A stretch of 64,000 bases of DNA from Neelides folsomi (taxonomy: Eukaryota; Arthropoda; Collembola; Neelipleona; Neelidae). Both the position numbers and the translations under genes were made by a program. The notes beneath the pieces are model-generated. The model was not told the DNA's origin, searched no databases, and was given only the letters and a program-made list of their open reading frames with translations. The stretch lies in assembly GCA_034687125.1 (NCBI GenBank), contig JAQGBZ010000041.1, positions 1 through 64,000 of the forward strand, given 5' to 3'. This document shows, one piece after another, positions 6,726-57,500 of the stretch; within the stretch, counting starts at the first letter, position 1, and each line of letters opens with the position of its first letter.

Positions 6726-9700
6726 ATGGACATCGAGGTGTTAATGAAGAAGGGGAAAAGAGGAGCGGCGACATATCTTCAATCGGAATGTGCAAGATCT
6801 TCTCGACCCGAGAGTTTACACAGCCTCCTCGACAACCTCCTAGATCCCTTAAAATCCATCGACGATTGGGAAGCAATCGAATGGTGTCGATGGGTAATGG
6901 CTGGGGGCTGCACTCCAGATGAATTTACTGCCACAGGTAAATCCTATGCAAAATTCAACGATTTTTAACTATTAAAGTTTTATTTATTATTTTTGTCAAT
7001 CGATCTTTGACATGTTTAACACGATTTATATTTTCTATCTGTAGTGAGAAGATATGACAATGCAACCACGTGCGGTCTTGTTTGGACAGCCAATTTCGTT
7101 GCGTATCGATGTCGAACTTGCGGGATTTCTCCTTGCATGTCCCTTTGCGCTGAGTGCTTCAAAAGAGGAAACCACAAAGGTCACGATTTCAACATGTTCA
7201 AGAGCCAAGCAGGCGGAGCTTGCGATTGTGGGGACACAAATGTCATGAAAGAATCCGGATTTTGCCATCTTCACGGTCCTCATGCCCAATCTCCCCAAGA
7301 CAGCCAAGGAGCTCCGTCTGACCTTTTGTGTGTGGCCAATGCAATGATGCCTCGGTTGATCCTTCGCCTTATTCAATTCATGAGACAGAATTCCAGCGCT
7401 ACGCTGGATATATTTCTTGGGACCATTCAGGCCGCTGACAAATTTATACAAATGCTGCACGAAATGAGCAGTATGGGAGCGGCCATGAGACAAGTGATGA
7501 CTAACACTCTCACAAATCCTCAGGTAATGTTTCATTTCTTTTTAAACGATTTAAATCTTTTTCAGAAAGTAATTAGAATATTTATCTAATAACTTATTTT
7601 AAAATTATCTCGATGATTCACGTTTCTTTTAACATTTGTCGTTCATTCATATTGAATAAAACCTTGAACATTAACGAGAGATTATGTATACATTGGGCGG
7701 AATCTCTAATTTTTCTTATGTCTCTCTTAAATAAATGTCATAATCAGACACGCGAACTTTATTTATTAAGGGGTGTTTTCTATGAATATTTGACTCTATT
7801 AATGAAAATTCAAGAAGTCTATGCCACGTTAATCTTAAATAAAGAAAGTCGACGATTTATTAACAAATGCAAATATATATTTCATATATTTTATTACATT
7901 TAGGTTATAAAACTTCCGATGTTAATTTCTGTTTTATAATTATTTACAGATTTACAAAATGATGACAGAAGTAAGTCCTGAAAATGTTAGTCCCGCATAT
8001 TACGAATTCATGCAGAGCACAAGAAAAGTGTACTTAAAAGCATTAGATTCCCTTCCAAATCCCGAATGTCCCGAAGAATATAAAGGTAATTAATTTAATT
8101 TTAATTTATTCCATTGTTTTTTTTAATAATCAAAGGTTAAAAATGTGTATTAAATATTTTTATTGATAAATGTGAACATTTTATTTTCAGACATCCCTTC
8201 GCTTCAAAGAACCTTAGTTCATAAGACATTTCTCGAGGAATTTGTATTTTGGACAGCAAAATTCGAATTTCCTCAACAAGTCGTGTGCCTTCTTCTCAAC
8301 TTGCTTCCTGATGCTGATTATAAAGTAATTGACATTTGTCACGCATCTTTATTTTTTAGTCTTTGTATTAGTAATTTACATACTAGTTTGAATACTTTAT
8401 GGAAGGAATATTTTTATTCATTTTATTCAACTATAGTATAGAGTAAGAGTTTTTTAAATTAATTTATTAATTTCTCAAAATCTTGAATATTTAATTAACC
8501 AATTTTTTGAAATTTTAGGAGGCTTTCACTCGAGCTTTCGTATTACATTATAGTAGAATTTCTCAGTTACTCGTTCGGTCTTCCGACTCCGACACATTGT
8601 CGAATAGAGTGGTTCATGTGTCGGTGCAGCTGTTCTCCAATGAGAAGCTCGCAGTTAGAATGACGGAACAAATGGGTCTCCTTCACGTAATGGTCATCAG
8701 TCTAAAATACATGATGAGTCAAATTACCAAGCGATCCGAGGAAAATAATGCAAAAACCACCCATCTTGTCGTTGATTGCGCCAATCCAGTTATGAAGGAT
8801 CATTGTTATTGGCCACTCGTCTCTGATTTGAATAATCTCTTGTCTCATCGACCCGTAGCGATGAAATTTTTAGAAGATAATGGTCTATTAAAAATGTGGT
8901 TTAACTTTCTATCAATGTTTCAAGGTAAATAATCCTGTATTTTACTATAAAAATATAATGATGGGTATATGATGTTAATGATTTATAAAAGTTAATGTTG
9001 ATTTTTATTATTTTCAGGAATGAATATGAACCAACGAGAAATGAATCAGCATGTAGAATTTGAGCCAAATACGTACTATGCAGCATTTTCAGCTGAATTG
9101 GAAGCCAGTGCATCTCCAATGTGGGCCCTTGTTTCACATTTAAAAGATTCTTCCACAGCTAACCTAACAAAGAATCTCTTGCTTCACTGTCGAGCTCAAT
9201 TGAGAGAATGGCTCGATTCTGTTGGGACTGAATCTGTAAAGGTAATTGAATATTTACAAAAACGAATAATAATTATGAAGGTTATTTCAATGGTATTAAT
9301 ACTTAATAAATATTAATTATTTTAATTTAGAATGACACTCTTCAAGTTTCGTTTCATCTCCCATTGCATCGATATTTTGCCGTCTTTCTGTATCAAGCAG
9401 TGAAGAATCAAGGCTTGTGTCTTGCAGACCTTCTTCCGCCATCCAATGAGCTCATTTCTTTAGTCTATCATCCACTAAGGGTCCAGACGGCATTTTATGA
9501 AATCATTAGTGGGATGTGGGTTCGGAATGGATTGCAAATCAAAGGGCAAGCCATGACTTACATTCAGTGCCATTTCTGTAATTCAATGGTTGATGCTGAT
9601 TTATTTCTTCTACAAGTCGCCATGATGAATCTTCCCAAAGGAAATTTTTTCATGACCGTTTTTGACAAGTAAGTTAAATAGTACTTAAATCAACTTAAGC

Positions 9701-12700
9701 TTTAATGGAAAAGATTAACAAGAGATTATATTTTAATGTATTTTGCAAATATTTACTTTAGATTTCATCTTCTTGAGTCTCTAAGCTTATCGACTTCGGT
9801 CACGAATTCCTATTTGGAACCGGATCAAGAGTTGCTGATGATGGAAAACTGCTTAATATTTTTAGCAACACTTGCTTCAGTCAGGACAGCCATTGGAATG
9901 ACCGAATCGGATTTAGTATCTCTTGAGATGATCACTCTCCTTTGCATGAGTGATAAACCACATAGTCAACTTATGGAGCTAATGCCAGAACGTTGTGGGA
10001 ACAGCTCACAGTCTCGAGACTTTGAAGCCGTCCTGTCGAGGGTAAGGACTTTTATATTTGTACACCAGTCTCACTGTCTCGCCTTCTTCTCCTTTGTTCA
10101 ATGTGATTAATGATGAGAATTTGTACTGAATGGTGTAGGTTGCCGATTACCGAGCTCCTAATTTTGAATCAAGTGGAAATATGTTGCAAGGAATGTATGC
10201 ACCCAAATCCTTTGTTTGGGAGTCCCTCTACGACCCAATTTACATTCTTCTTCGTGCGGTTCACAGGAGAGAATTTCAAACATCTTTGGATCGATTCACT
10301 GAATTGTAAGAAGAAATTTAATTTATTTCAAATTATTCAAACTTTTCCAACTCAATTATTTACACTAATGCTTTTCTACAGTGCGAAGCAGACTGGAAGA
10401 CATAAAGGGTCGAGTTCTCCATGGCCGCCATTTAGAATCCCAGCAAATGTCAAAGAGCCTTATACCGACCCGAGAGAACTCCTTTTATCTAAAGTATTCC
10501 AGGGGATACTTTTTGTAATCTTTCATAAAGCTGTTCATACAAGTCAATTATCTGATCAACTCGTTTCACTCGCTGTTTACTTACTCGAATTAGCGCTAAG
10601 TGTCTGTACAGCAAAAGAACCGATGGTAAGGAACTTTTATTCCTTTAAATACAAACATCTTATCCTATAAAACTTAAATTCAATACGATTAAAATTTGTT
10701 TTTTAAATAGGGCATATCAACCCTTGAAACGAATTATGGTCGTTATGATATGGATTTTCCAACTTGGTACAGCACGGATTGCTTATTGGAAAATTTGAGA
10801 ACTGCTGTAGACTCTGTTCTTATCAAAGGAATTGGAACTTCTAATGGTACAAACTCCAATTATAATAATTAAACGCTTTATTTTATTACTCATTATTTAA
10901 ACTAAATGCTTTATAAAAATTGTCTAAATTATAGACGTCAGTGTTGACGAAATGGAAGTAGAATACTACGAAGGAGACATGGACATGAATGATTATGATG
11001 GAAACGGTCTTGCATCAATTACATCAGCTGATTATCCGATGGCTGAACCTGGATATGGACAATTAGATTTAGCCATTATTAATCGTGAGAAAAATGCTTT
11101 TTATAAAGTGCTTTAACCTTTTACATTACTATATAATTAATATACCTACAATAATTATTTAGGAATGCTAGAAGGTGATACCGAAGAAAGAACCCCAACA
11201 CTCAGGCAACGAGGACTTCAAGTTGTTTTAGTTCCCCCAAAGCCCCTTACTATCATGGATAAAAGGGAAATGGTCGAAGGAAATTTAGCCGTAAGTGAAA
11301 ATTTTTAGGATACAATACAACAAATAACAATTTTTTGTTTATTTTTTATCTTAACCTTAAGTACTTTTTAATTAAAGTATAATTTACCATTTTAGATTGG
11401 TGATAGTCAACCAGTTGAACTGATAGTGAATGAAAGCATCATATCACTCCTTTTGAAGCTCCATTCAAAGTTCAGCTCAAACCCAGATAGTTATGTACCA
11501 TTCTGGGAATCTCCCGAAGCAGCTCAAATCATCCAAGAATCCCTCACGGGAGTAGTAGACAATGGTCTAGCTGTCGAGAAAGAGGATATCATAGATCCAA
11601 TTACTGGTTTACCCGATGTTAAAGTTTCTTATTCAAATGCTCAACTCTACTCAATCCTTCAAGCTCAAAAACCAGACTCACGGATAGGAGACGGAGAATT
11701 TTTCATTAAAAAAATCCTCGACAACATTGGTTCGAAAGACGATAGTTGTAGGGAACACATTATGGAAGTGAGGGAAACCCTTTGGCCAAAGAAATGTGAG
11801 AACGAGGAGGAAACTCGAAAGAGGGAAGAAAGGGAAAAGGAAGAAAAACGAAGGAAAGCACGAGAGAGGAGAGAAAAGCTCATGGCTGACTTTGCCAAAC
11901 AACAGCAAAAATTCATGGAAAAGGCTATGACTGAAGAAGAATTTCGAGTCACGAATGACCCTCCAGGAGTTGACGATTCCTTCATTGATGACAATAGTTT
12001 CGACTCAGACCATATGTCGATTAGACCAATTGAATACGATTGTGTCATATGCAATCAAACGAGTCCGTCAACTCAAGAGAATCCTGTCGGTCTGGTCATT
12101 TTACTCCAAGCTTCCTCTACTCTTGGCCATAGGAGAAAAGCAGGAGCGGAATCTCCCAATCTGCCAACTTCGGATGATGAAAGTACTGAGATGGCGTCTG
12201 CCACTACAATGACTTCATTGAATAAGAAGAGATTGGAGATGTTCAAAGTTCATTTTGAAGCTTCTCAATGGCTCCTTTCAATTTCTGCTGGATGGGAAGG
12301 AGGAGTCCATGTTCAAACCTGTGGTCATCATCTTCATCATGATTGTCTCAAAGGGTATTTGGCAGCTTTGAAGTCACAACAGCGCCAACAGAATATTTCA
12401 ATTGAGAGGTAATTTAAATAGTCAATTAAATTAATAAGTATTTTTAAATTAAGCTAAGCCATCTAAAACATAGTAATTCACATTTTAAATTGTGACAATT
12501 TTACTTAATTTTCCTTTGTTTATTAGGGGTGAATACTTTTGTCCATTTTGTCGTCAATTGGCCAACTCGTTCTTACCGCTTTCTCCCGAATATGGAATTC
12601 GCAAAGGTGCCCTAGTAAAGGATAGGAAGGTTGGGGAAGTTCCCACCACTCCTGAAGCTACAGTTCCTGAAATCCCACCCTCACATGAATCAATAGTTGC

Positions 12701-14650
12701 TCTCGAGGTTGTTAAACTCTTAAGGGAATACCCTTGTCCCACCGTACCAAGCAAGATGATGGATGCGATGGCAAAAACTATGGAGGAAATGACAAATGCC
12801 ACTCAATTGAAGTATCGACAGGTAATTTTTTGATTTTTTAGAGCAATGCCCAAAGAAAAAATATATTCTATTTATATGATTTCATGTGTTAATACAATAT
12901 AATGATTTTTAAAAAAGGTTGGGAGTACAACACACACAAAAAGTATTTTACTCTTTCTCAATTCTATTGCGAGGACGAATTTGGAATTAGAAATTGTACT
13001 TCGGAACGGTAGTTTGGTTCATGAATTGGAACCACAGCCTTCTACTTCAATGGGCTCATCGCCTTCGGCCTTCTCGAGGCGTTCATGCATTGGTATACAT
13101 TTAAGGCTATTACAATTTATATAAATTATAAAAAAATATATATTTTGCTATTCAAGGAAAATGAAAGGAGAATTAAATTAACTTTTATTTTTAGTGCCAT
13201 TACTCCATGTCATTGGATTTCACTACAAGATTCTTTCAACGGACCCTTGCACTCCGAAGATATGGGAAAGAGTCCTGGGGATTCGATTTTTACCTGACAC
13301 CGAACTCACAATTAATGAGCCAGAAGTTCCGATGCTCCTCCGAGATCCTTCTTCAATTCTTCTACTCCTTCTCTTGCAACTTCCTATGCATGTTGACTTA
13401 GGTGAGTTTTTCATTTATGGATTTTATATTTACAGTTTAACAATATTTACATAATTTATGGAAGCTTTAAGATTATAAAAGAATCTGTATTGATTAAATT
13501 AATATTTTTGCAGCTTATTTCACGAGTATGGTACAGGGTATTTATAATTTGGTTTACGTCCAAATATTGGCTGCTATCAGTCTTCAACTTCGAGAGAAGG
13601 AACGAGAAGATTGGAAATCGAAGACATCGCTCAATAACACAGGAGACATTTATCAATTTTACACCTTATTTGGGACCGTAATTCGATATCTTGAAAAATC
13701 TCCAGTCTACATTCCAGACGCTGATCTGGGCGACATGGACAATAATATCTTTTCACGAAAACTTGATTTAAATGAGGAAACAGAGGATTTCGAGAGTCAC
13801 GTCCAAGGGCTTCTTCTCCCCTTTCTTCGCATCGCCTCTCTCTTGCACCACCACATTTACGAACAAGAGCTTCCAAAAGGAATCGACACACCTGAGAAGG
13901 AATTCGGACACTTGGCCCATTTCCTAGGGTTAGGAATTAAAGACAAAGTGATTGATATTCTCTCAGAGTCGCCAGATCAAATCCGGGCTCATAATTTCCT
14001 TCAGTGGATTTCCCCAACTCCGTTGACCACGATCTGGACTTGGTGTCAAGACTTGACCATTTTCATTGGGAGAGCTCAAATGTCCGCTAGGTATCTCATT
14101 GAGACCCATCATGTTCTTTGGGCTCAACCCAAATTAATGGAATTGCCAAGTGGATACGAAGGCATATTTCAATATTATCACCGGAAGCCGTGTCAGAATT
14201 GCAAAAGTGTGCCGAAGGAACCAAATATTTGTCTTGTTTGTGGCCAAATTGTCTGTATGAGGGATTCCTGTTGCAAGACGGTGAATACGGGGATTTGCGA
14301 GGCAATTCAACACTCAATAGACTGTGGAGCTGGAACTGCCATGTTCTTATCAATCAACTCATCTACTATTGTCGTTGTGCGGGGAAGAAGAGCTTGTCTA
14401 TGGGGCTCGGTCTATCTTGACAGCTTTGGCGAAGAAGATCGGGATCTTAAGTAATTTTTAATATACTCGAGTAGATAATATTAATTGTAATATTATTTAT
14501 GAGATTGAAACTAATTTTTTTTTTGATTTTAGACGGGGAAAGCCATTATTTCTATCCAAAGATCGATATGCTCTTCTTCAACAACAATGGGTGACCCATC
14601 GATTCGACCATACTAATAGAAAATGGGTTTGGCACAGAGACAATTTGTAA
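6726..14650 (+). CDS. Ubr3: E3 ubiquitin-protein ligase UBR3
   Basis: Nineteen coding exons: 6726-6936, 7045-7523, 7950-8085, 8191-8324, 8519-8924, 9018-9241, 9331-9668, 9762-10041, 10139-10305, 10382-10625, 10711-10846, 10935-11084, 11163-11290, 11396-12408, 12527-12821, 12918-13092, 13195-13401, 13514-14450 and 14533-14650. They give 1925 residues, close to human UBR3 (about 1890). The UBR zinc box spans about Cys80-His147 and carries the UBR3-like FVAYRCRTCGISPCMSLC block. A RING-H2 is split by a long insert: CVIC at about 1227, CGHHLHHDC at about 1320 and CPFC at 1354-1357. The C-terminal cysteine-rich domain contains NICLVCGQ and ends in the family's RYALLQQQW region. UBR3 transfers ubiquitin with RAD6-type E2 enzymes and, unlike UBR1/2, is reported not to bind classical N-degrons. 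The ATG follows an acceptor at 6722, so the first exon is non-coding. Confidence 0.95.
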
Positions 14651-39027: not shown

Positions 39028-40316
39028 ATGGCACCTGTAAGTCATTAATTTCGATTCCTTTATACAGATTTGTTAACTGTCTTTCATAATTTTAAGGATT
39101 AGATCTCAAATTTGAGCAAACTAGCATTTATTTACGATTCTTTTAATGATGGCCATTGTGGCCTGGAATTTTCATGCCACAAAGCAAAAATATTCAGATT
39201 AGACATTTTAGACTTTTACCATTACTTCAATTTTCATTAAAGATTCAATTACTATTATTTCATGATAATTAATATTATTCCAGCCTGCCGATAAAAAGAA
39301 GCCAGCGGCAAAGGCCCCCGCGGCCGCCGCAGGAGCCAAGAAGGAGAACAAAGCTCCAGCAGCAGCAGCGGCCCCAAAAGCGACCAAGGCCCAAGCTCCT
39401 GCTCCTCCTGCAGCGAAGAAGGCTGCAGATGCTCCAAAGGCCAAGGCCCCAGCACCTCCCAAGAAAGAGGTCAAAGTAGAGAAGGTCGAGAAGCCAAAAG
39501 CTGAAGCCACCAAGCGACCTGCAGAGCCCAAGAAAGCCGCCGCCCCAGCTGCAGGAGGAGACGCCCAGCCAGCGAAGAAAGCCGCTCCTGCCGATGCTCC
39601 AGCGAAGCCAAAGGCTGCTGTTGCTGCAAAGAAACCAGCAGCGAAGAAAGCAACTCCCAAGAAGGCTGCTGCTGCTCAGCAGAAACAGCAATTGAAGGGA
39701 AAGAGCACAGCGTCGAAGAAGAAGAAGGCTGCGACCAAGTTCGTCATTGACTGCACTCTCCCAGCCGAAGATCAACTTTTCAACTGCGCTGACTTCGTAA
39801 TTAAAAATTCTAAATTTATGGAAATTGGCCCGATTGGCCTGCACATGAGAGTCATGTAAGCATTAGGGCTATCTTCCCTAATCAATGCCTCTTTTGTGGT
39901 TTTAGGAGAAATTTCTTCGTGAAAGGATAAAGATTAACAACAAGACCGGAAACTTTACAAATCAACTCACCATCGAGCGAGGGGACAAAAATTCCAAAAT
40001 CGTTGTTAATGCTAATTGCGCCTTTTCCAAGAGGTAATTTGAAACAATAAAATTGTGCCTATAAGTTTCATATCACATGTATGCAAACAGTTTTACTGAC
40101 ATTGATTATTGATAAATGTTCCTTTTAATGATTTCAAGATTTTAATTATGTGATTTTTTATCTTGCAGATATTTGAAATATCTGACTAAGAAATATCTCA
40201 AGAAGAACATGTTGAGAGATACCCTTCGTGTTATTTCCACAAACAGAGATGGATATGAGCTCCGCTACTTCCAGATCGGAAATGAAGCCGATGATGACGA
40301 GGAAGACAACGAGTAA
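39028..40316 (+). CDS. RpL22: Large ribosomal subunit protein eL22 with long N-terminal extension
   Basis: Four exons: 39028-39036, 39284-39796, 39906-40033 and 40169-40316, giving 265 residues, against about 128 in vertebrates and about 300 in Drosophila. Exon 1 encodes only Met-Ala-Pro. Residues 4-150 are an Ala/Lys/Pro-rich, histone-H1-like extension as in insect L22. The conserved domain follows: [20 protein letters not shown] joins across the second intron to [16 protein letters not shown], then [17 protein letters not shown], and an acidic tail DDDEEDNE. The intron donor after Phe174 matters, because reading through gives a stop soon afterwards. The protein is a 60S subunit component. 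Confidence 0.97.
39156..39182 (+). other. Small hairpin in RpL22 intron 1
   Basis: TTGTGGC at 39156-39162 pairs perfectly with GCCACAA at 39176-39182 around a 13-base loop. In yeast, Rpl22 binds a hairpin in its own intron to reduce splicing. Whether this hairpin does the same is a guess. Confidence 0.3.
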
Positions 40317-51246: not shown

Positions 51247-51702
51247 CTAGTCCATCCATGACTGCTCAACGCACGCTTTGACTCTCTTCTCGTACTCCCT
51301 TCGATTCTCTTTGTACAGTTGCGCGGCCATGGAGTTCGCAGGTGAGTTTGGGTTCGGGTCGCTGAGCAATGACTGGATAGAGGTGAGGATGGCGGAGACA
51401 TCGTACGTTGGGCTCCACCGATTTTGCAGGATGTCGAGACAAATGGCTCCGTCGGCGTACACATTCGGATGAAACATCTTTGACATAAAGCGAACAGTCG
51501 GGGGCTTGTTGGGATATTCTTCGGTAAACTCGATGGACAACTTGAACGTCCCGTCTTCGAACGGAGTGTCATGTGGACCAAATATGATTGCGTTCCATAG
51601 CATAATATTGTTGTCAGTGGGAGCTCCGCTGACTCCGGCTGGAGGATCTTCTTGGAGCTTTTTGAAATCTCTCATCAATCGTCGTCTCGCTGGGGTGGAC
51701 AT
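51247..51702 (-). CDS. Ubc6: Ubiquitin-conjugating enzyme E2, RAD6/UBE2A type
   Basis: A single uninterrupted frame of 151 residues, the usual family length (152 in human UBE2A). The start [20 protein letters not shown] is diagnostic. The HPN motif lies at 78-80 and the catalytic Cys88 in [20 protein letters not shown]6 enzymes carry ubiquitin for E3 partners, including RAD18 and BRE1 (nuclear) and the UBR family (N-degron and related substrates). The coding part has no intron, but TTTCAG at 51781-51786 (- strand) suggests a spliced 5' leader. Its first exon may end at 52618 before GTGAGG, in a GC-richer block. Confidence 0.96.
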
Positions 51703-53295: not shown

Positions 53296-53478
53296 GTGAC
53301 TGAATGTCTCTATTTTTTACAATTTTTGTATTTTTAGAATCATTACATTTTTTTGTATTTTTATGATGATTACATTTAAGTTGATTTAACATCCTTAGAG
53401 AAATACAACGTTCAATATTTTTTACATAAACATCCTGATTTATAAGTTTAGAATTATCTTTAATGAAGTTCAGTTCAG

Positions 53479-54113
53479 CTACTCAGGGGTTGTTTCAGTC
53501 GGTGGGGATGAAATCAGCTTCTTGTAATTTTCTTTCATTTCTGATAACTTCTTATTTTTAAGTTCTCTGCTTTGGCTGAGTTTTTGAAGTATTCTCTCTT
53601 CTTGGGCTTTGACGCTCATATCGCCATTGTATTTCTCGTCGAGCCTTTGAATTAAAATTGTCCGAGCCAGTTTACGGTTTTCGGATAGGAGCCGGGATAA
53701 ATGACATTTCACCACAATGCCTAAAATAATAAAAAATAACATTGAATTAGCAAAGCTGTGGAAGATTTTATAATTTCAATTCAATTTTAAACGATTAGCT
53801 TATTTTAATAAATGGTACCAGAAGGAATATGCTTGATGACGATGCAATTAGAATTTGTATTAACATTTGACCCTCCAGGGCCATTTCCTCTAATTGACTT
53901 TTCTTCAATATCTTTCTCATTGATGACCGGGACTCTTGATCTGTCAATTGTGTGTTTCTCTCGAATAAACATGAGAAACGGTTGCTCGATTGTCGCAGAA
54001 AGCAGAGCAATTTTATTCAGGAGATGTGGATTTGTTGATTGTGTATTTAAAGTTGAAAGGGGTGGAGCGATTGCAAAGGGTCTTTTAAAAACGTAGAGGT
54101 TGTTGAGGATCAT
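53479..54113 (-). CDS. Mitochondrial ribosome-rescue release factor, MTRFR/C12orf65 type, with GGS motif
   Basis: Two exons on the - strand, 54113-53819 and 53720-53479, give 178 residues, near the human length of 166. The basic start [20 protein letters not shown] suits a mitochondrial leader. The core reads [20 protein letters not shown], then [10 protein letters not shown] joined across the intron to [20 protein letters not shown], then a Lys-rich helical tail. All of this is typical of MTRFR. In release factors of this fold the loop is GGQ, and its Gln positions water for peptide release. Here residues 80-82 are Gly-Gly-Ser (codon TCA). MTRFR acts on stalled, split mitochondrial large subunits. 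The start lies 55 bases past the stop of the upstream LYR gene on the same strand. Confidence 0.85.
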
Positions 54114-54168
54114 TATAAATAATTGAAATATATCTAAATTGAGTTTCTTTTAACAAATATTGATCAAT

Positions 54169-54509
54169 TTAGATAAGTCTTCGTTGATTCAGGATTTGAA
54201 GTCCTTTCTGAAATTATAAAATATTTAGTAAACAAATGCTTTTGGAATTTAAAAAATGTACGTTTATAAGTTATAAGATGGAAATGACGACATTGACACT
54301 CATTGTCACCATAATATGGAAATTACCTGGTATTGGAAAGAGATATCATTGTAGTCCTTTAATTCACGATGCTTTGAAAATTCCTTTCGAACTCGATTCA
54401 AATAGTATTCTTTATCTGTGTATTTTAAACTGTTGGAATATCTGAGGAGCTTCTTATACAATGAAAGAATGAGTGTCTGATCTGGCTTCAAAATATTAAC
54501 AGCATTCAT
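54169..54509 (-). CDS. MIEF1-MP-like LYR-motif microprotein
   Basis: Two exons on the - strand, 54509-54327 and 54207-54169, give 73 residues (the human MIEF1 upstream-ORF protein has 70). The sequence has LILSLYKKLLRYSNSLKYTD, then YLNRVRKEFSKHRELKD, and after the intron KGLQILNQRRLI. These align with the human microprotein throughout. The LYR motif reads LYK at 17-19. The human protein binds mitochondrial acyl carrier protein and MALSU1 on the mitochondrial large ribosomal subunit. In vertebrates it is encoded in the leader of MIEF1 mRNA. Here no MIEF1 follows; the next gene is the MTRFR-like factor. An in-frame upstream extension to 54533 would need a TTG start, so the ATG at 54509 is chosen. 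TTATTAG just upstream suggests a spliced leader. Confidence 0.82.
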
Positions 54510-54533: not shown

Positions 54534-57500
54534 CTAATAAAAGAATTAAAGTAATTAACTTTCAAACTTATAGAATTAATTCATCATGATAAAGTCGTGC
54601 TAATTTTAATAGATTTTTTTCAATAATTACTAAAATAATTAAATTAATATTTTTCTTGATAAGATAGGCAATTAATTGAAAATAATTGAATAAGTTCATC
54701 AAATCAAATTATCCTAATCAATATCAAATCCCATCTTACTTTCTTGTAGACAAATCGAAGCCTTAATTGTTGGATTAACTTTCCGATTTAAAAGAGCAGA
54801 CTTAAGTCTCTTTAATAAAGGAATGACAATTAAGGGAAACTCCAATCAGCATAGCTGTGATATCCACATTCCACCTTATGCACAATGGAGTGTTGGGCTA
54901 AAATCTCAAGAATTTAGACCCGCTATGCTTTCTCATTCACACCGGTGTGGAAGATAGTGACAAGGATTAGACATGTTACACGTAGTCAGTGCAAATTGTA
55001 ATGTATAGTAAAAAGCACAGATGAAATAGAGATGAAGTATAGAAGAGTTGAAGATCCTGAGACGTGGAAAAGAATTGTTTTGGTGATGGTTGGAGTTGTT
55101 GGGAGCAGCAGCTGAGGGGATTCCTATATTGATTCTCCCTCTCATCCAACAGGCGGAAGATACAGGCAGGTTGGGCTGGCGAAGACCTCCACGAGCTTTG
55201 TACTCTTCTTGGGTCATCCGGCGGTGAAGGAACTGGCTCTCATCACCAGGTCAATCGGCTCACACCCTCCTTTGTCATTGGACTGACACACTCAATTGAT
55301 ACAATCCGGACGTCCGCTGGGAGAAAACAGAAAAAACAAAGCTCTGGCTCAAAAATTGACATTCTAGTTTTAGTTTATTGGAAAGAATATCGGATACTTT
55401 TGTTTTGGACTTGTTCAAATTGTAAACTTTTGAAGATTCTTTAGAAACATTCAAATAATACTCTTCACAAGAAATTACAAATTGAAACGGAAAGGGTCAA
55501 CTACAAACTACAAAGCATCAACAAGTAAATTACTGGTGAGTAACTTTTACATTATTATTATGGTTTATGGTTAAGATAACTGAAAGATAAACGTCAAGTT
55601 TTTATTTATCTTGCAATCAAGAAACGGGGAAGATCCTGAAGATCATAATTTTGCATATAACGATTCGTATAATAAACATTTGGGAGATTAATGATTTAAG
55701 AACGAATACTAAAATTTTCTCATTTAATAATATGTGGATGACTAAATGTATTAATGGTGGTTCATTATTTAATTGATAATGTAAAATACCATAAAAAAGC
55801 CCAACTTTGTTTTTATAATGTTTTCATTATATTAGCCAAAAAATAAGTTTTATAGAGCGACACTAAAATAACCGAATTGGATAGAGGGATTCGTAAACAA
55901 CACTCAAATACAAATTATTCCTTCACGCACATCCAATTGCAGATCATTTAATATGAAAGTACTCTTATTGAATGAGTCATTAACTTTACTTGTTAAAGTT
56001 TCATGATCACGTTAAATGTTATGTTTAACTGTGATTCATTCATCACAATTTATCACAAACAGACTGATATTTAGATAGTCAAATCTAAATGGTCAAACAT
56101 TTTATTTCAATTAAGAACCACAAGTCCTTGTTTCATGAATCAATGGACATGGTTTGTTTCAATTTATTAAACAAAATTAAATATGGAAAGAGATGATGTC
56201 TGTTATTTAGTGTTAGTGCCCTATAATTCATTTAGCCACCAGAATCAATTTGGACCAATTTAAATTGATGGCAATTGTAAACAATTTTTTCTCCTTATTT
56301 GTGGAGCATAGAGCATAGTTCACCATATTATTTACAATCAGTAGTCTAATGTATACATGCATACAGTACAATTGTAGTTAAATTGTACAGATATATCTAT
56401 ACTATTTATCTTTTAGTCCAAGCACCTAAAACATCATTTATTTACACCTATGCATGTAATTTACTCTCTATGCATTCTATTTTTACAAACTCGCGTCCCA
56501 TTTAATTAATGAATGCATTCACATGAGGTGTAGACTCGAAATAAACATAGTAGTGATTTCCCTGTTTTCAACAAAAGATTATTGAACTGGGAGAGTTTTG
56601 CGTGAGCTGCGAGCCACAATACAGATTGGATCTTGGTCGTCGACATTTGACTTCGATTCGGTTTTCCTAGCATCGGCGTGGTGGGGGGATTTCTCCTTTG
56701 CCCTCCTGTCGCATCCTCCTGTGAAAGACTTTTGCTTCCTCAACCATCTGTTTTTAACGGCAGGGCGTTGTACCTCCTTCTCACTCAGGAAATGGGTCAT
56801 TTGGTTGGGAGTGAACTCCATACATATCATATCCGACTCCGGTAGACACCCAAACACATTTGCATTTTGCATCACTATCCATATAAATAAATATCCTCTC
56901 TGTTTATGTATGGATTGGGAGTTTGAATCTGTTTGAAGAAAAATATTGTAGAATTTAATGAACCCATGCTGGGGGCTAACGTTCATTCCCGGCTGTTTCG
57001 CATGTGGAGAAATAATTTGTTCATAGCTCTTTGCAAACCATTCAACTCTTCAGATTCTAAATATCATATGTGGAATATTTATCTCCGTGAAAGGTTGCTA
57101 TAAATAAATTTGCATTTACAACTGGGCGTTTACTTTTATGTAAAATAGATTATTTTCATTCAATCATTTACAAATCCTGACTTACTGCGCTCAGGATTCA
57201 TAAACATGGAAGGGGCAAAAGTTTCTCTTAAAATGTCAGTTGTATCTTTATGTTATTATAAGAAGATAAACAAATGAAAGTTCTTCGCTCTTAAAGCCTC
57301 ATTTGGCATTTTAGGAAATAGACCTTACAACTTTTTTAACTTACCACCTACTTACTTTTAGAACAATTTATTCAAAATTACTGTTTGTTGAACTCAAGTT
57401 TTTTGTATAAGAAAATCACAGACGATTTTCATAGTTGCAAAATAAGTAAAGATAAGCATTCCCAGACTCAATCATCAGGAATGTAGAAAACTTAAATGTT

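Follow-up and report, generated by a model that had tools for sequence, protein, structure and literature searches.

Arrangements described in vertebrates and flies

The closest described relatives of the locus presented here come from vertebrates and from flies. In vertebrates, the mRNA of MIEF1 carries the microprotein MIEF1-MP, known also as AltMIEF1 or the MIEF1 uORF protein, as its upstream cistron (PMC5703645); the initial annotation of the present locus likewise noted that the two share an mRNA in vertebrates. During assembly of the large subunit, human L0R8F8 occupies the intersubunit face together with MALSU1 and mtACP (PMC8208988).

For flies, the Drosophila survey of Hayden and Bosco (2008; PMC2276209) lists 44 conserved peptide uORFs. 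Among them is one on CG30100, which is annotated there as a translation release factor. This uORF encodes 70 amino acids and has a Ka/Ks of 0.08, the main ORF one of 0.09 (p < 0.0001 for both), and the most distant pair given for it involves an EST from the tick Ixodes scapularis (DN974785). According to a 2026 gene-model note (PMC13401236), CG42372 and CG30100 flank JhI-26 downstream in D. melanogaster, while in the D. dunni model of the same note CG30100 and CG7747 are matched downstream of JhI-26 and CG42372 is unlisted; in that model, CG42372 may have been merged or missed. A 2022 study (PMC9585818), the available text of which leaves MIEF1 unmentioned, includes CG42372 itself in its fly Complex I LYR-motif entries. 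Literature searches on uORFs with C12orf65 and MIEF1, on CG30100 and on CG42372 returned no paper that names MIEF1-MP and MTRFR together on one message.

Organization of the Neelides folsomi locus

The locus lies in a window of 64,000 bases, the whole stretch of DNA analysed, which is part of contig C41 in a Neelides folsomi genome of 75.1 Mb and 840 contigs. Two genes of two exons each occupy the minus strand (Table 1): a microprotein gene encoding 73 amino acids (span 54509-54169), followed by an MTRFR/C12orf65-like gene encoding 178. The two same-strand frames reported initially are both present where they had been placed, and the distance from the microprotein stop to the MTRFR start is exactly 55 bases. 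A DNA search of the genome found the locus in single copy, with no second copy. The genome gives 38 matches to the cuticle family Chitin_bind_4 at E 1e-4 or better, where 14 prokaryote control genomes give none, which points to an arthropod; the intradiol dioxygenase family PF00775 has no match in it, which tells against a spider mite. An ML-domain search gave four matches.

Other frames in the window deserve brief mention. Approximately 1.8 kb downstream of MTRFR, a single frame of 151 amino acids (51247-51702, minus strand) encodes what we take to be a UBE2A/Rad6-like ubiquitin-conjugating enzyme. On the plus strand, open frames at 7020-14454 resemble, by eye, exons from the gene of a large E3 ubiquitin ligase of the UBR type, and an open frame at 39269-39859 carries a Lys/Ala/Pro-rich stretch like that of a histone H1-like protein or a ribosomal-protein extension.

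Table 1. Features of the microprotein–MTRFR locus, in window coordinates
Feature	Position	Strand	Remark
Microprotein (MIEF1-MP/AltMIEF1-like) exon 1	54327..54509	-	start codon at 54509
Microprotein intron, GT-AG, 119 bases	54208..54326	-	
Microprotein exon 2, stop TAA	54169..54207	-	codes the KGLxxLN end common to human AltMIEF1
LYR-motif position, Leu-Tyr-Lys (LYK)	54453..54461	-	from sequence
Intercistronic gap, 55 bases, no ATG	54114..54168	-	
Candidate acceptor-like site CAATTTAG in gap, pyrimidine-poor	54134..54141	-	
Candidate acceptor-like site CTTTTATTAG 5' of microprotein ATG, possible 5'-leader intron	54534..54543	-	
MTRFR (C12orf65-like) exon 1	53819..54113	-	start codon at 54113
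GGQ position of MTRFR, Gly-Gly-Ser	53868..53876	-	from alignment with human C12orf65
AATAAA within MTRFR exon 1	54012..54017	-	may be chance
MTRFR intron, GT-AG, 98 bases	53721..53818	-	
MTRFR exon 2, stop TAG, then ATTAAA at 53464	53479..53720	-	

Identity of the two encoded proteins

The microprotein scores 39.5 bits against the Pfam family Complex1_LYR (PF05347; cut-off 24.8), and its best PDB match is human AltMIEF1 (E 8.8e-11), to which it is identical at 24 of 59 aligned residues. Within the PDB, a search confined to solved structures, the first LYR protein of another name is LYRM4, whose E-value of 0.016 is larger by about eight orders of magnitude. The tripeptide that names the family reads LYK here, not LYR; PMC9585818 gives the motif as LYR/K. 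A Complex1_LYR search of the genome produced eight matches, seven of them above cut-off, so the microprotein gene is one of several LYR genes. With AltMIEF1 first in the PDB and far ahead of other LYR proteins, sequence comparison supports the original labelling of the 73-residue protein as MIEF1-MP/AltMIEF1-like. Elsewhere in the genome, contig C56 has two adjacent LYR-domain matches on the same strand (125539-125839). They cover profile positions 2-28 and 22-58 and could belong to one gene with an intron; the match at 2-28 has one internal stop.

The 178-residue protein scores 65.7 bits against Pfam RF-1 (cut-off 35) and finds its best PDB match in human C12orf65 (E 5.7e-27, along residues 31-169), the first match of another kind being bacterial RF1 at E 5.3e-9. 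It consists of an RF-1 catalytic domain without codon-recognition domains. Its designation as MTRFR-like is borne out by the Pfam score and by the rank of C12orf65. A feature overlooked in the earlier description is that the protein reads GGS where aligned human C12orf65 reads GGQ. The description as a ribosome-rescue factor therefore calls for caution, since the catalytic glutamine is a serine here. Because of this substitution, the gene is named an MTRFR orthologue by sequence, and its product is a putative rather than a proven peptidyl-tRNA hydrolase.

A probable bicistronic unit of arthropods

We consider it probable that the locus represents, in Neelides folsomi, an ancient bicistronic unit of arthropods, in which an MIEF1-MP cistron precedes an MTRFR cistron on one mRNA. 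In order and length the locus matches the pair published for fly and tick, as compared by description rather than by alignment. Since length, order, family and neighbour all agree, we infer that the fly 70-residue uORF is most likely CG42372 and the counterpart of the microprotein described here. On that identification the pairing would span chelicerates and insects, and it is very likely an inherited, old arthropod arrangement. The linkage, not seen described at the time of the initial annotation, was already published in 2008, where it figures as a conserved uORF without a name (PMC2276209). As for the bicistronic unit proposed at the outset, the adjacency finds its parallel in fly and tick, and the placement of both frames on one mRNA in Neelides folsomi is likely. 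Pattern searches in two collections not meant for animals gave 225 matches to the microprotein among prokaryote genome contigs and 20 to MTRFR among viral contigs, none of which was confirmed.

How might two proteins be made from such a message? One promoter upstream of 54509 would give rise to one spliced mRNA with both frames, on which ribosomes would meet the microprotein AUG first. Ribosomes that bypass it, or that resume after a short out-of-frame ORF, could then reach the MTRFR AUG, 55 bases past the stop. Between the two start codons the spliced message would have two more AUGs, neither of them in the gap; each opens a short out-of-frame ORF, one of 5 codons and the other of 13. Depletion of AUGs within the microprotein frame, as a sign of leaky scanning, was not found (3 observed, 2.6 expected from resampled synonymous codons), and leaky scanning is therefore not favoured from the sequence.

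Signals for the end of the message were sought with ten poly(A) hexamers. Only AAGAAA (54149) begins in the gap, where neither AATAAA nor ATTAAA occurs, and the ATTAAA after the MTRFR stop counts toward one message. A message for the microprotein alone could end at the AATAAA within MTRFR exon 1. This signal could also serve the microprotein if the locus held two independent genes, adjacent only through the compactness of a small genome (75 Mb), with the MTRFR promoter inside the microprotein gene. Against such independence stands the conserved upstream peptide on the release-factor messages of Drosophila and tick (PMC2276209), on account of which chance adjacency was rejected; we regard two independent genes as very improbable.

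The same publication bears on the role of the upstream frame. Its authors left open a regulatory role for such uORFs, and one might picture the upstream frame as a uORF that represses MTRFR and makes no working protein. A Ka/Ks of 0.08 in flies (PMC2276209) speaks against that picture, as does the identity of 24 of 59 aligned residues with a human protein whose structure on the mitoribosome has been solved, and we hold it to be highly improbable. A regulatory side role may nonetheless exist beside the protein function.

The main rival to a single bicistronic mRNA is alternative splicing within one transcription unit, whereby an upstream leader exon would be joined either to CTTTTATTAG or to CAATTTAG and MTRFR would thus obtain a message of its own. 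A stretch resembling an acceptor does exist in the gap, as first reported, and proves to be a weak one: CAATTTAG has 46% pyrimidine in the 13 bases before AG, set against 69-85% in four of the five homology-supported acceptors of the genome (38% in the fifth). With TTTAG expected at approximately 0.09 per 55 bases in the window, its presence is only mildly notable. The stretch CTTTTATTAG, at 77% pyrimidine and 24 bases from the microprotein ATG, is the better candidate, and makes a leader intron possible. The splicing scheme can thus draw on a pyrimidine-rich site before the microprotein and on a second site in the gap; no leader exon was identified, and we give the scheme only a slim chance of being correct.

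Possible loss of the catalytic glutamine in rescue factors

The serine at the GGQ position of MTRFR invites comparison with the other RF-1-domain genes of the genome, of which an exon-by-exon search, from which others can escape, found three in all (four matches). An mtRF1a-type gene on contig C250, with mitochondrial release factor 1-like as its best match (E 3.2e-69), keeps GGQ. The only ICT1/mL62 gene found in the genome (C362, 34787-37867; E 6.5e-25) reads GGM, in SSGPGGMNVNKN, on a reverse-strand exon near locus position 1540. The glutamine is thus kept in one of the three RF-1-domain genes found and missing from both rescue factors.

In bacterial release factors, replacement of the glutamine side chain alone lowers release or its specificity, and does not always abolish it. 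The PDB alignment of MTRFR includes an RF1 chain that itself reads GGS (9mtr). Published work, in the passages available, treats the glutamine as a mark of activity. For instance, Dom34 and MRPS35 are termed inactive for want of it (PMC6514570), the activity of ArfB is abolished by mutation of the GGQ motif (PMC8012679), and loss of the glutamine from the GGSQ motif of Vms1 entails loss of function (PMC5989216). In yeast, VAQ variants of Pth3 and Pth4, in which the glycines are changed and the glutamine is kept, fail to complement (PMC7940416). A literature search on loss of GGQ from arthropod ICT1 found no match, the available portions of PMC3950681 and PMC9674279 contain no statement on the fly residue at the GGQ position, and those of PMC6283296 make no mention of Drosophila or an ortholog.

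Both motifs were read from one assembly, and errors in it could be invoked for GGS in MTRFR as well as for GGM in ICT1, each concealing a GGQ; for MTRFR, a pair of length errors that compensate each other in short runs of one base could mimic GGS. Each motif codon is, however, at least two positions away from any glutamine codon, so that a single substitution error explains neither motif, and both frames are intact and well conserved elsewhere. Errors in both genes are accordingly unlikely in our estimation.

A more far-reaching reading, which we put forward tentatively and as somewhat less than an even prospect, is that MTRFR (GGS) and ICT1/mL62 (GGM) both truly lost the catalytic glutamine in this lineage while mtRF1a kept GGQ, that rescue is altered as a result, and that the microprotein has switched its mRNA partner in the course of animal evolution, being paired with MTRFR in arthropods and with MIEF1 in vertebrates. 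Rescue altered in this manner might depend solely on the backbone and the two glycines. Alternatively it might no longer involve hydrolysis: MTRFR would hold or clear the split large subunit next to the MIEF1-MP module that the shared message encodes. If real, loss of the glutamine from both rescue factors of one animal would offer a direct test of the dependence of mitochondrial rescue on this residue.

Two proteins found in one human large-subunit particle

The PDB searches list entry 7a5h for both the human MIEF1 uORF protein and human C12orf65; one solved entry therefore contains both human proteins. Split large subunits are the site of MTRFR action. The functions of both proteins in the Neelides folsomi mitochondrion can be sketched as follows. 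The microprotein would assemble with mtACP and a MALSU1-type protein at the intersubunit face of the large subunit, MTRFR would work on the split large subunit, and both would thereby act on one kind of particle. One message would then provide for both tasks, keeping the small subunit at a distance and working on the large subunit once it is free.

Of the partners so envisaged, an mtACP-like gene is present in the genome, as a match on contig C14 above the Pfam cut-off; a DSLD site and a C-terminal end, which we take to be features of mtACP, were read in it by eye. The RsfS/MALSU1 profiles PF02410 and TIGR00090, both of which match in 10 of 14 control genomes (prokaryotes), found no match in the genome. 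Absence of MALSU1 is not claimed, since genes split by introns can be missed by such a search. As a separate observation, the genome encodes counterparts of two human partners of MALSU1, in the microprotein and the mtACP-like gene, though the RsfS/MALSU1 profiles match nothing in it.

Comparison with known systems

What the present analysis adds to the published record is a likely identity for the microprotein on the MTRFR message, its different message partner in vertebrates, and a possible loss of glutamine. The first would give a likely name to a conserved uORF that has been anonymous since 2008. Two proteins of one human large-subunit particle appear, moreover, to have shared a message since early arthropods. 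With the same microprotein on a different message in vertebrates, the exchange of partners between bicistronic genes becomes a question that can be tested.

Of known systems, the Drosophila CG30100 transcript is among the closest: the order is the same, a release factor forms the main ORF, and the uORF encodes 70 amino acids compared with 73 here. Its neighbour CG42372 is, by published description, a LYR-family protein, as is the microprotein. The human MIEF1 dual-coding mRNA (AltMIEF1/MIEF1-MP plus MiD51) carries the same kind of microprotein as its upstream cistron, but its downstream cistron is the fission adaptor MiD51 and not MTRFR (PMC5703645). Human MTRFR (C12orf65) resembles the Neelides folsomi protein in having an RF-1 domain without other domains and differs from it in reading GGQ where GGS is found here. 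The MOCS2/CG10238 mRNA, which featured in the same 2008 study and is conserved across distant eukaryotes (PMC2276209), is another animal mRNA with two cistrons whose products belong to one pathway; the proteins that it encodes are the subunits of molybdopterin synthase.
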